Shown here: positions 8,388 to 47,855 of the stretch, piece by piece
Position numbering within the stretch: the stretch's first letter is position 1
Layout: each line of letters opens with the position of its first letter
From: Bacteroidota bacterium
GTDB lineage: Bacteria > Bacteroidota > Bacteroidia > 2-12-FULL-35-15
Direction of reading: 5' to 3'
Assembly (NCBI GenBank): GCA_947479085.1
Contig: CANJYB010000002.1
Location: 124,001-188,000, forward strand
Length of the DNA: 64,000 nucleotides
Made by a program: the position numbers and the translations under genes
Notes under the pieces: generated by a model
Told to the model about the DNA's origin: nothing
Seen by the model: the letters and a program-made list of their open reading frames with translations, nothing else
Database searches by the model: none

Positions 8388-9052
8388 CTAAACAATAATC
8401 ACCGAACACGGTTCGCTATCTGGTCCTGCTTCGCCAGTAGGACTCAGATAAAAACAAATTACCCAAAGTTTTTTACCAACTTTGTCAACTATTTGAGGAA
8501 GTTCAAATTCTGTTCTGCCTTCTTGTTGTTGAATCCGGTAATCATCCAATGGAGGTGCAGTTCCGGCTGCATCGGTATAACAAATTTTTAAACCTATGGC
8601 ACCTACTTTTGGCGGTTTTGCACTTTTTGCAGGTTGATTAGGATTAGCTGCAAAAAACACCGGTAATAAATGAGTATTACGAATACAGGAAACTACAGGG
8701 GCAAAATTAACTGCCGGAACAGGGGTTCTGCCTGTTTTTGGTTTCGGAATATCAAGGTTAGCATAATCAACAGTAGTTAGCGTTATGGAAGGATTAGATT
8801 TAATCTGCATTTGAACTCCATCCATTATTCGCTTGTCTTCATCATAGACAGTATTCATCTCGCCAATGGTAATTGTATTGTGGGCGTTTGGGTCGGTGTA
8901 GGCATCCATAAAAGGCCCCCAATCGGTCCAGTTAGTGGATAGTCCGTTTTTTGAGCTAATGGAATTCCCAGTTCCACATAGTTGATTGCGATATAGGCTA
9001 CAAATGCTTTAAACCTGAAATTAAACTGAAGTATTTTATTTGATAAAACCAT
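8388..9052 (-). CDS. Small helical + fibronectin III-like protein, frameshifted
   Basis: Two overlapping minus-strand frames make one gene. The N-terminal frame (start 9052, 'MVLSNKILQFNFRFKAFVAY') and the C-terminal frame (Met at 8909, 173 residues) join if the A6 tract at 8947-8952 is read as A7. This gives 'PLAQ-KNGLSTNWTDWGPF-MDAY' and a 221-residue product. The N-terminal half is helical. A Pro-rich linker ('KPKTGRTPVPAVNFAP') precedes a fibronectin type III-like C-terminal domain ending 'PDSEPCSVIIV'. There is no signal peptide. I recognise the architecture from a family of small uncharacterised Bacteroidota proteins; its function is unknown. The frameshift could be a sequencing error, transcript slippage or a real mutation. 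The 21-bp array at 9213 lies divergently upstream. Confidence 0.6.
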
Positions 9053-9212
9053 GTTGTTTTTTAGTTTCTTAAACTATTTTATTAAATTGTTATTAATTTA
9101 TTTTTACTCTTATTATTATATGTACTTAATTTTTACTGTTAAAATTCACACCTCTTTTTTTTGCTTTTCAATCCATATTTAATGATTTCTGACCGTTTTA
9201 CCTTGTTTTTGA

Positions 9213-9464
9213 ATCATTAAGGTTAGTGATGCAATCGTTAAGGTTAATGATGTAATGACTAAGCTTAGCGAACCGATGATTAACCTTAGTGGTTAGAACA
9301 TTAACTTTAATGGTGTAACCGTTAACCTTAATTGTTTAACCATTAAGGTTAGTGATTCAATCATTAAGGTTAATGGTTTAATCACTAACCTTAACAATGC
9401 AATCATTAACCTTAGCCATTCGATTGTAAACCTTAATGGTTCAATCGCTAACCTTAATGAAGCG
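9213..9464. repeat. Array A: 12 tandem 21-bp units
   Basis: Twelve consecutive units of exactly 21 bp share a degenerate consensus around ATCATTAASSTTAATGGTTTA, where SS is GG or CC, so each unit is close to a palindrome. Read on the plus strand from 9213 they translate as heptads (IIKVSDA, IVKVNDV, MTKLSEP ... IANLNEA) with one in-frame TAG ending unit 4. A TGA precedes the first unit and no in-frame start codon opens the array, so it is not a functional gene as it stands. It lies 160 bp upstream of, and divergent from, the gene starting at 9052. Confidence 0.85.
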
Positions 9465-9493
9465 AAAACGGCACCTTTTGATGTAATCGCCTG

Positions 9494-10124
9494 TAAAACA
9501 AAGAGCTTTTTTTAAAATTCAAGGTCAAAAGTACAGCAGCGTAATAACACTGTCAAGAAATCGAAAGGGTTTTTGGATAACTGTGTAGCTTTTTTGGATA
9601 ACTGTGTACCTTGCCTCATACATTTAATATGTGTCCATTATTAAATAATCCCATTAAAACAAAGAACTTTCTTTAATTCCGGGCCAAAAGTAAGGCGGTG
9701 AACTAACACTGTCAAGAAATCGAAAGGGTTTGTGGATGAACGTGTAGCTTTTTTGGATAACTGTGTACCTGCCTTATACATTTAATATGTGTCCATTATT
9801 AAATAATGCCATTAAAACAAAGAACTTTTTTTAATTCCGGGTCAAAAGTAGGGCGGTGAAATAACACCGTCAAGAAATCGAAAGGGTTTGTGGATGAACG
9901 TGTAGCTTTTTTGGATGAACGTGTAAGTGAATCTTTTTTAAAGATGGTTTCTTTTTATTACGTCACGTTGCGATTATTTGAAAAGGCTGCGAGTAGATGT
10001 ATTTTCCAGTAAAACAAAGAACTTATTTTAATTCCGGGTCAAAAGTAGAGCGGTGAACTAACACTGTCAAGAAATCGAAAGGGTTTTTGGACGAACGCGT
10101 ACACTTTTTGGACGAACGCGTACA
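9494..10124 (+). repeat. Four ~160-bp direct repeats, each carrying two 21-bp units
   Basis: Copies start at about 9494, 9655, 9813 and 10010. Each contains TAAAACAAAGAACTT, then (A)TTCCGGGTCAAAAGTAG, then CTAACACTGTCAAGAAATCG, then two 21-bp units reading as heptads on the plus strand (FLDNCVA-FLDNCVP, FVDERVA-FLDNCVP, FVDERVA-FLDERVS, FLDERVH-FLDERVH). Copies 1 and 2 also share a trailing CATTTAATATGTGTCCATT block. No open reading frame with a start codon spans them. The region resembles serial duplications that carry small 21-bp repeat pairs. Confidence 0.8.
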
Positions 10125-10215
10125 TGCTTTAAATAAATTATAGGTAATCCATAATAAAGGGCGAGTCGTAGTTTTAGATTCACACTTCCCAGCAGCTGTT
10201 TTTCCTTCATCTTAA

Positions 10216-31622: not shown

Positions 31623-32294
31623 TTACCCGCAAATGGTACCTTGCACATTACTCAACTGGCTCACCCCTGCTGTGTTTCCGGCAAAAAAATAAGCAAAGTA
31701 TTCAGTGCCTTTGGTTAAAGCATTAAACTGTTTTTTGCGTTGTTTGTTTATGTCAATTCTTATTATGTATGCAGCTTCTGTAGGGGCTATAACCAGCTGA
31801 CCTTCCACTATTGCAGTATCAGTGAGCTCTTTGGTGGTGAGAAGGGTACCGTAAAATTCAGCTCCCGGAACCACTTTACACTCTGCCACCAGCATGCGCG
31901 ATGCTTCGCCTCTACCAATGGTTACAACCGGCACTCCCGGAACGCTGGAAGCAGAGCGGGTTACCTTGGTGGGAATAAATCCGCCAAGGATAATGATGTC
32001 CTCATTACCATTAGCCCTTGTATCCACAGCTCCGTTGAACAAATCCATATCGCCCAATACATCTCCCTTTGCAAGCAGGAAAGGGCCTTTCTGGTCGTCA
32101 CCACCTCGCTTATAGGCATTATACTTTAGAACATAGGTCGCAATATGACCTTCAAAAACGGTCTGCGTTACCGGGGTTGTGGCTGTAAAAATGCCGGTGT
32201 TGTTAAACCACCCGTTTTTTACTCCTGTTGCGGTTTCTGCTAAGGTATCAAACGATTCGGTATGATACTCCAAACTGCATGTTGATTTTGCCAT
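31623..32294 (-). CDS. Small protein with fibronectin III-like C-terminus
   Basis: A 223-residue protein without signal peptide or membrane segment. The N-terminal ~110 residues are mixed helical ('ESFDTLAETATGVKNGWFNN', 'GHIATYVLKYNAYKRGG'). 'ILGGFIPTKVTRSASSVPG' opens a beta-rich C-terminal part that ends 'LTKGTEYFAYFFAGNTAGVSQLSNV', the pattern of a fibronectin type III domain. The gene at 8388-9052 has a similar overall plan. Both carry CTAAAAAACAA shortly before the start and both have a 21-bp repeat array divergently upstream. The function is unknown and no enzyme motif is visible. Confidence 0.6.
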   Translation of the reverse strand: MAKSTCSLEYHTESFDTLAETATGVKNGWFNNTGIFTATTPVTQTVFEGHIATYVLKYNAYKRGGDDQKGPFLLAKGDVLGDMDLFNGAVDTRANGNEDIIILGGFIPTKVTRSASSVPGVPVVTIGRGEASRMLVAECKVVPGAEFYGTLLTTKELTDTAIVEGQLVIAPTEAAYIIRIDINKQRKKQFNALTKGTEYFAYFFAGNTAGVSQLSNVQGTICG

Positions 32295-32369
32295 TTTTTA
32301 ATTGTTTTTTAGGTTTAATTTATTTTGTTGCTTTTATTAATCTTTTACGTACAGGATTGTTTTTGAATT

Positions 32370-32613
32370 ATATAACACTATCAAGACTTCCAAAAAAGCA
32401 CTTTCCAAGTTTTCAGAAAAATTAGCCAAGTTTTACAAAAATTTCCCTTCTTTTATCAAAAACTTCAGGAAGTCTTTCTGAAATTTCCCAAATTTTTCTG
32501 AAACTTCCCTAACTTCTCCAAAAATTTCCCAAATTTTTCCGAAACTTCCTAAGTTTTAAATCCAACTTCCTTAACTTTTTCTCAAAAATCTTTTTTTTTG
32601 GCAAAAACTAGGG
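32370..32613 (+). repeat. Array B: about eight 20-21-bp units with conserved head
   Basis: After the head TAACACTATCAAGACTTCC (from 32373), near-21-bp units run to about 32579. On the plus strand they read SKKALSK, FSEKLAK, FYKNFPS, FIKNFRK, SF*NFPN, FSETSLT, SPKISQI, FPKLPKF then stop, so one TGA interrupts the frame. Spacing between like motifs is 21, 21, 21, 20, 21, 20, 21. The head matches TAACACTGTCAAGAAATCG in the direct repeats at 9494-10124, and the trailing CTTTTTTTTTGGCAAAAACTAG (in parts) recalls their tail. It lies divergently upstream of the gene starting at 32294. Confidence 0.75.
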
Positions 32614-32834: not shown

Positions 32835-33242
32835 TTACCTGTTCAACAAATAATAATCCTCATCAAACCGCTTAAAAATCTTCCTGCTTTCTATTTTAAT
32901 GGTGTCCTGATTGTCCAGTTTCACCGTCATTGCCTTGCTATCAAAGCTTAGTATGCGGTACATGCAAAACAGGCAACCCACCCGGTAATACCCGAAATGA
33001 TTGTAAGGCAGCAGCAAGGCTAATTCTTCAAGGCAGCGATGGTCGTTAATAATGAGGCCATTGGTAAGTGTAATCTGCGAACAGTTATTGCGCGCATCCG
33101 CCCTTACAATTTCGCATGTTTTTACTTCCTGCATACTTCCCTTCTTACCCAGCAATACCATATCGTTTAAGTATTCCGTCTTTTTTCTCGTATAACCCAG
33201 CTTCAAAACCTTGTTACCAATTTTTACATTGTTTTTTTTCAT
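32835..33242 (-). CDS. LytTR-like DNA-binding protein
   Basis: The start is the ATG at 33242 (MKKNNVKIGNKVLKLG), since the 24 residues upstream in the longer frame are unlike a leader. The 135-residue protein matches the LytTR fold pattern: 'EIVRADARNNCSQITLTNG' (first strands), 'CLEELALLLPYNHFGYYRVGCLF' (the helix and RvHrs-like stretch) and 'TVKLDNQDTIKIESRK' (last strands). LytTR domains bind DNA direct repeats and usually sit behind a receiver domain. Here the domain stands alone, so it may be a one-domain regulator. The usual 'RvHrS' is replaced by 'YRVGCLF', which leaves DNA binding less certain. Confidence 0.6.
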   Translation of the reverse strand: MKKNNVKIGNKVLKLGYTRKKTEYLNDMVLLGKKGSMQEVKTCEIVRADARNNCSQITLTNGLIINDHRCLEELALLLPYNHFGYYRVGCLFCMYRILSFDSKAMTVKLDNQDTIKIESRKIFKRFDEDYYLLNR

Positions 33243-47520: not shown

Positions 47521-47555
47521 TTAGTTTGTTTCATCTTTCTGCTTGTTTTTTTGAC

Positions 47556-47855
47556 TTAATTATTCGTTTGTTTGACTTCCTTGCTCGTTTGTTTGGCTTC
47601 CCTGCCCATTTGTTTGACTTCCTTGCTCGTTTGTTTGACTTCCCTGCTCGTTTGTTTGATTTTCCTGCTCATTTGTTTGACTTCCTTGCTCATTTGTTTG
47701 ACTTCTTTGCTCGTTTGTTTGACTTCCTTGCTCATTTGTTTGACTTCTTTGCTCATTTGTTTGACTTCTTTGCTCGTTTGTTTGACTTCCTTGCTCGTTT
47801 GTTTGACCTCCCTGCTCATTTGTTTGACGTTCCGATTTTTGAATCTGCCTAACAA
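47556..47855 (-). CDS. Possible heptad-repeat coiled-coil protein (array C)
   Basis: A 99-residue frame starting at TTG (47855). After 'LGRFKNRN' it consists of 13 heptads of the type VKQxSKE (Val at position 1, Met/Thr at position 4), ending 'VKQTNN'. The sequence predicts one long, basic/acidic coiled coil without signal peptide. The start codon is weak, and the plus strand is open through the same region as RLFDFLA heptads, so coding is not proved. The uninterrupted frame, unlike arrays A, B and D, favours a recently active gene. No neighbour suggests a function. Confidence 0.35.
   Translation of the reverse strand: MLGRFKNRNVKQMSREVKQTSKEVKQTSKEVKQMSKEVKQMSKEVKQTSKEVKQMSKEVKQMSRKIKQTSREVKQTSKEVKQMGREAKQTSKEVKQTNN
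47565..47837. repeat. Array C: 13 tandem 21-bp units
   Basis: Thirteen exact 21-bp units of the type YRTTTGTTTGACTTCCTTGCT, differing at only a few positions, begin at 47565 and then at every 21 bp to 47817. It is the best conserved of the four arrays. Both strands are open in at least one frame because 21 is a multiple of three. Confidence 0.9.

Follow-up and report, generated by a model that had tools for sequence, protein, structure and literature searches.

A family of small helical-fibronectin type III proteins in Bacteroidota is encoded behind locus-specific tandem arrays with a period of about 21 bp

Genes for a family of small proteins with a predicted helical N-terminus and a fibronectin type III (FnIII) C-terminus lie directly behind tandem DNA arrays in Bacteroidota. 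An upstream array within a few hundred bases, whose period is 20-22 bp or two or three times that value, was found at 62 of the 67 distinct homologous loci (93%), with arrays and family genes running in the same direction. The earlier note, made on the window (the whole 64,000-nt stretch of DNA analysed here), had proposed that an array and a small FnIII-like gene form a recurring unit, and that Bacteroidota homologues should be searched for upstream arrays of 20-22 bp. The search bears this proposal out, and the counts run against the opposite case, in which homologues would usually lack an array. The observation is far more general than the note had thought.

The loci were collected in two sets. 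In the first set an array was found at 42 of 44 loci by a single autocorrelation detector, and in the second at 23 of 26, including the 22/44-bp arrays of one lineage. Three loci of the second set repeat loci of the first, giving 67 distinct loci; the figure of 65/70 used in the statistical test includes these three. With the same detector arrays were recorded at 92/976 ordinary genes of seven genomes (9%) and in 18/321 cases in three family-free genomes (6%), corresponding to odds ratios of 119 and 209, respectively (p < 1e-48). The loci were collected by homology, so that they are not wholly independent of each other. Construction of the detector followed inspection of the first set, and that of its lag-44 class inspection of the second; lags 44 and 66 are also included in the control counts. 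Of the five array-negative loci, L020 is a pseudogene at which a degenerate array can still be seen, and L086 (433 aa) was rejected as a false family member. We regard the gene-array association as secure, with very little room for doubt.

The family proteins are ~205-240 aa long. P0001, the representative encoded in the window, was assigned to no family in Pfam or NCBIfam. Searched against the PDB, the family profile A5 hits FnIII domains of titin, RPTP-delta and fibronectin (E 3e-23, positions ~112-205), the profile of P0001's own subfamily gives a weaker FnIII match than A5, and the protein of locus L042 matches Pfam fn3 with E 2e-4; by this C-terminal profile match the family is classed among predicted FnIII-domain proteins. 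An AlphaFold model of P0001 (5-sequence alignment, mean pLDDT 41) was set aside. The family is present in 9 of the 59 nearest genomes. In samples of the phylum, narrow profiles detected it in 3 of 296 and 7 of 395 genomes, and a broader profile in 52 of the 395 genomes of a class sample (20/196 genera), often with at least seven copies per carrier genome.

The earlier note had also considered a mobile unit. In phage and plasmid collections no homologues were found for the proteins tried; a viral match of L075 proved to be a tape-measure protein and spurious, and the PHROGs tail-protein matches of the family are weak and fall mostly within the FnIII part. The arrays are unrelated between loci and are not copies of one another, and in two species the same locus (L058/L114) keeps both its array and its ftsK neighbour. 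A mobile element in the usual sense is thus not supported. The gene type found at array B has different neighbours in 83%-identical relatives, so relocation of this gene does happen.

The window belongs to a Bacteroidota MAG (G000; 4.28 Mb, 50 contigs), and four named relatives are Bacteroidetes MAGs. It contains three arrays (Table 1): (i) array B, upstream of the P0001 gene, (ii) array A, upstream of a second small-protein gene (gene A), and (iii) array C, flanked on one side by a gene for an RDD-type membrane protein and on the other by a gene unrelated to it, in a neighbourhood free of family genes. For the neighbour of array C, the only relative found was a partial match in G014. Array B (about 32373-32605) is real, as had been claimed: it is degenerate, with TRF calls at 32405-32443 and 32475-32557 and a best autocorrelation of 0.62-0.67 at a 20/21-bp period against a background of ~0.27. 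Array A is cleaner (0.73 at lags 21/63).

The earlier picture of the two arrangements needs correction in three respects. At array B the head motif lies between array and gene, at array A it lies beyond the array; a divergent arrangement is not supported, the evidence pointing to transcription through the array towards the gene; and there is no support for reading the two genes of the window as copies of one unit, since they belong to different families and gene A is frameshifted. The frameshift (between 9052 and 8909, near 8910-8960, at CAAAAAAC) is either a sequencing error of the MAG or a mark of a putative pseudogene. Gene A forms a second family with L057:7990 and L068:12041 (33% identity, E 1e-30) and resembles the FnIII family only very weakly. 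These two relatives also lie behind 21-bp arrays, the second family showing the same arrangement.

Table 1. Features of the three arrays of the window and of their surroundings
Feature	Position	Strand	Basis
Gene for P0001 (223 aa), family gene	31623..32294	-	ORF and homologues
A-rich untranslated leader with CTAAAAAACAA, array B to start codon	32295..32372	-	sequence
Head motif of the earlier note, minus-strand reading TCTTGATAGTGTTA	32373..32386	-	motif search
Array B, degenerate 20-21-bp units	32387..32605	-	TRF and autocorrelation
135-aa protein, co-directional, upstream of array B	32835..33242	-	LytTR-like by eye
Gene A, frameshifted	8388..9052	-	related to array-linked L057:7990-8649 and L068:12041-12718
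Array A, period 21, ~11 units without indels	9212..9459	-	TRF, autocorrelation
boxA-like GCTCTTTGTTTTACAG adjoining array A	9491..9506	-	similar motif in own 16S rRNA leader
Additional boxA-like copies near array A	9652-9667, 9810-9825, 10007-10022	-	
rRNA-type promoter TTG-N20-TACTTTTG nearest array A	9526..9556	-	sequence
Additional rRNA-type promoter copies	9685-9715, 9843-9873, 10040-10070	-	
Mini-array, two 21-bp units, between nearest promoter and next boxA	9570..9612	-	TRF
Second mini-array pair, beyond fourth promoter	10084-10124	-	TRF
Array C, 14.7 clean units of GTTTGTTTGACTTCCTTGCTC	47524..47833	.	TRF

The head motif shared by arrays A and B, a 14-mer, is genuine: TAACACTRTCAAGA has zero-mismatch matches in the whole genome only at array A (three copies) and array B. 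It corresponds to TAACACTATCAAGA at 32373-32386, to TAACACTGTCAAGA at 9545, 9704 and 10059, and to TAACACCGTCAAGA at 9862. At array A it reads as the -33 part of predicted rRNA-type promoters. On the minus strand before this array there are four ~158-bp repeats (9494-10130), each carrying TTG-N20-TACTTTTG followed within 20 nt by GYTCTTTG, with two-unit 21-bp mini-arrays of different sequence between them and array A itself after the nearest repeat. The promoters have the form usual in Bacteroidota, TAnnTTTG (literature lead: PMC6847099). GYTCTTTG is read as boxA because the 16S leader of the same genome has the same layout of promoter and boxA, and array A starts at a boxA-like GYTCTTTGACATA that resembles the rRNA leader. 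At array B the minus-strand reading TCTTGATAGTGTTA is similar to the -33 element of the promoters at array A, with no clear -7 element after it.

At part of the loci, then, a boxA-like motif stands at the far end of the array and points towards the gene, accompanied at array A by the rRNA-type promoters. In genome G038 the motif was found at 7/8 loci; GYTCTTTGACATAYTG has five exact matches in this genome, each of them at the start of an array. Over 65 loci the motif occurs 12 times in sense and once in antisense orientation, which makes it lineage-dependent and not general; apart from one lineage and the genus of the window, boxA is rare, and a clear promoter was seen at few loci. The layout of an rrn-type antitermination leader is clear at array A and at the 7/8 loci of G038 and absent at most others. 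Further boxA-like hits of G038, at 13 contig ends (e.g., L226-L238), were considered as marks of rRNA operons and rejected: they belong to the edge of a multi-copy element, with boxA-like GTTCTTTGAAATATTG ~50 bp inside it, which is probably an insertion sequence collapsed in the assembly.

Arrays at family genes comprise about ten to twenty or more units, with a median length of 352 bp and a median distance to the start codon of 75 bp. The leaders average 46.6% A (42 loci), and CTAAAAAACAA is typical of them. Averaged over 48 arrays, the autocorrelation shows three peaks and no others, at lags 21, 42 and 63 (0.55, 0.58, and 0.51, respectively; baseline 0.27); lag 42 is as strong as lag 21, so that units often alternate. 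Some loci have periods of 20/40 bp, and f9-family genomes (L155, L157, L159, L162) show 22/44 bp instead of 21/42 bp, with CGATCG-rich units in some. While the period is constant within these bounds, the unit sequence is free and changes fast: it is locus-specific, unrelated between most loci, and shared (in the same orientation) mainly by proteins above ~75% identity. In two paralogue pairs, each within a single genome, L024/L029 (79%) and L049/L053 (82%), the array has been wholly replaced and the ~21-bp period kept.

Further properties of the arrays concern composition and structure. The sense strand has A>T in 38 of the 48 arrays (p 6e-5). Palindromic units were considered and rejected (mean arm 4.6 vs 4.0 in shuffles; 9% of units with p<0.05). 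The folding energy shows an excess (z ~ -1.7) on both strands, which is not a general hairpin, since palindromy is weak; sense-specific RNA structure was not found in the arrays. Predicted curvature exceeds that of arrays assembled artificially from natural 21-mers (mean rank 0.72 +/- 0.04) and shows no clear excess over column-permuted arrays (28 of 47 more curved); the curvature result is suggestive only.

These data suggest a phylum-wide two-part unit, in which the helical-FnIII protein would require a locus-unique transcribed array defined only by its two-turn period, the unit sequence being replaced as paralogues diverge, so that spacing and not sequence is inherited; we put this reading not far short of an even chance. 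The boxA-like motif and the rRNA-type promoters at the far end indicate that the array is probably a transcribed, untranslated leader. Tentatively, and with distinctly less than an even chance, we suggest that it may be a cis-acting leader or promoter element that works through the spacing of two helical turns rather than through sequence, a principle of DNA geometry to which the conservation of spacing alone points. Transcription would start beyond the array and run through it towards the FnIII gene, rRNA-like antitermination would protect the leader transcript from early termination, and the array would act in cis on the downstream gene, tuning its expression. With units two helical turns apart, bends would add up coherently, and a single face of the DNA could be offered to binding proteins or to RNA polymerase. 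Each paralogue could keep its own array because the units are freely replaceable and their copy number can change by slippage.

In favour of this model we count the association with its constant period, the replaceable unit sequence, the closeness of the arrays to the start codon, the orientation of the boxA-like motif, the promoter and boxA layout shared with the 16S leader, the A>T bias and the curvature relative to the artificial arrays. Against it stand the rarity of boxA and of clear promoters and the comparison with column-permuted arrays, and it has to accommodate arrays lacking a family gene. In 464 kb sampled from G000, the window among them, there are ~28 arrays of the type described, about a dozen of which adjoin family genes or similar small-protein genes; for the many others, beside unrelated genes and in one case (L071) in a convergent gap, a role in the expression of a downstream gene is hard to see. 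The arrays might instead be by-products of a process making 21-bp repeats, tolerated in intergenic DNA and merely persisting near family genes. In line with this, two family-rich congeners are densely populated with arrays (17 in 360 kb and 5 in 200 kb, i.e., 22 in 560 kb), many of them away from any family gene, and two family-free congeners have next to none (1 in 280 kb; p 0.0015, four genomes in all). We nevertheless consider such an origin unlikely, as nearly every family gene has an array across distant lineages, including G090 and G557, where other intergenic arrays are absent from the sampled sequence, and degenerate arrays retain the spacing. Among the solitary arrays, L064:9211-9996 is a 786-bp array with a 42-bp period and 99% identity, with a second, degenerate array adjoining it and family genes lacking in the vicinity. 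RAYT-like (REP-associated-type transposase-like) ORFs, recognized by eye, adjoin 21-bp arrays at L060:6106-6639 and, as an upstream 205-aa ORF, at L119.

The array could also be a row of operators, bound cooperatively at two-turn spacing by a DNA-binding protein encoded next to it. LytTR proteins bind direct repeats ~21 bp apart, which fits the array spacing, and upstream of many arrays there is a small, usually co-directional gene of LytTR, LuxR-type, AraC, XRE or sigma-like character. Pfam assigned LytTR (4), GerE (3), HTH_23 (3), AraC, XRE and sigma-region-4 domains among 20 neighbours that were picked for their DNA-binding look, so that no enrichment statistic attaches to these counts; the 135-aa protein upstream of array B had no match in a Pfam scan. 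However, such a neighbour is missing at more than half of the loci, and the period does not vary with the class of regulator. L017/L021 and L009/L012 have similar arrays and different regulators, and in these two cases the array tracks the FnIII gene and not the regulator. The operator explanation thus appears doubtful. It is quite improbable that the array RNA binds the FnIII protein in the style of a type III toxin-antitoxin system, both being made from one transcript: the constant gene order, the many variants per genome, the likely transcription towards the gene and the patchy distribution (see above) would suit it, while the protein is an FnIII protein without a ToxN-like match, paralogues of ~80% identity have unrelated arrays, and the RNA lacks sense-specific structure. 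Least of all do we expect the arrays to encode heptad-repeat peptides, an extremely improbable explanation that many open frames might recommend (45 vs 30 expected, including one of 89 aa at both L017 and L021). The opposite strand has a similar excess (46 vs 35), arrays A and B contain stops, and periods of 20, 22, 40 and 44 bp are not multiples of three, which excludes a purely coding cause; the arrays show no consistent coding.

Because only the period is conserved, the array is invisible to sequence-similarity searches. If functional, the two-part unit would exemplify selection that acts on spacing and not on sequence, and it would provide a handle on the FnIII-family proteins and on the many 21-bp minisatellites of these genomes; the preferred reading also predicts which intergenic repeats are transcribed. 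No earlier description was found in the literature searched, a search that left most subscription journals aside, and the unit appears not to have been described previously.

Several known systems share individual traits with the gene-array unit. As in the type III toxin-antitoxin systems ToxIN, CptIN and TenpIN, tandem repeats immediately precede the gene for a small protein and probably share a transcript with it. The repeats of those systems are ~35-50 nt long and the protein is a ToxN-type endoribonuclease, whereas here the units are of 21 bp and free in sequence and the protein is of FnIII type; no Pfam match to ToxN, CptN or TenpN endoribonucleases was found in the family proteins scanned. 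CRISPR arrays and boxA-led rRNA operons resemble some of the loci in having a long, here presumably untranslated, transcript behind a boxA-like motif. Unlike CRISPR arrays, the units stand head to tail, with no spacers and no cas genes, and unlike rRNA operons, the loci contain no rRNA and an ordinary protein gene follows the array. With LytTR and other direct-repeat operators the arrays share a spacing near 21 bp and DNA-binding neighbours, but they have ten to twenty or more units, differ in sequence by locus and do not track the neighbouring gene. Tandem repeats near a gene start with a changeable copy number are also known as phase-variable promoter repeats; the arrays differ from them in combining a constant period with a free sequence. 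As no known kind fits all of these tests, we set the gene-array unit, with its putative function, apart as a candidate new kind.
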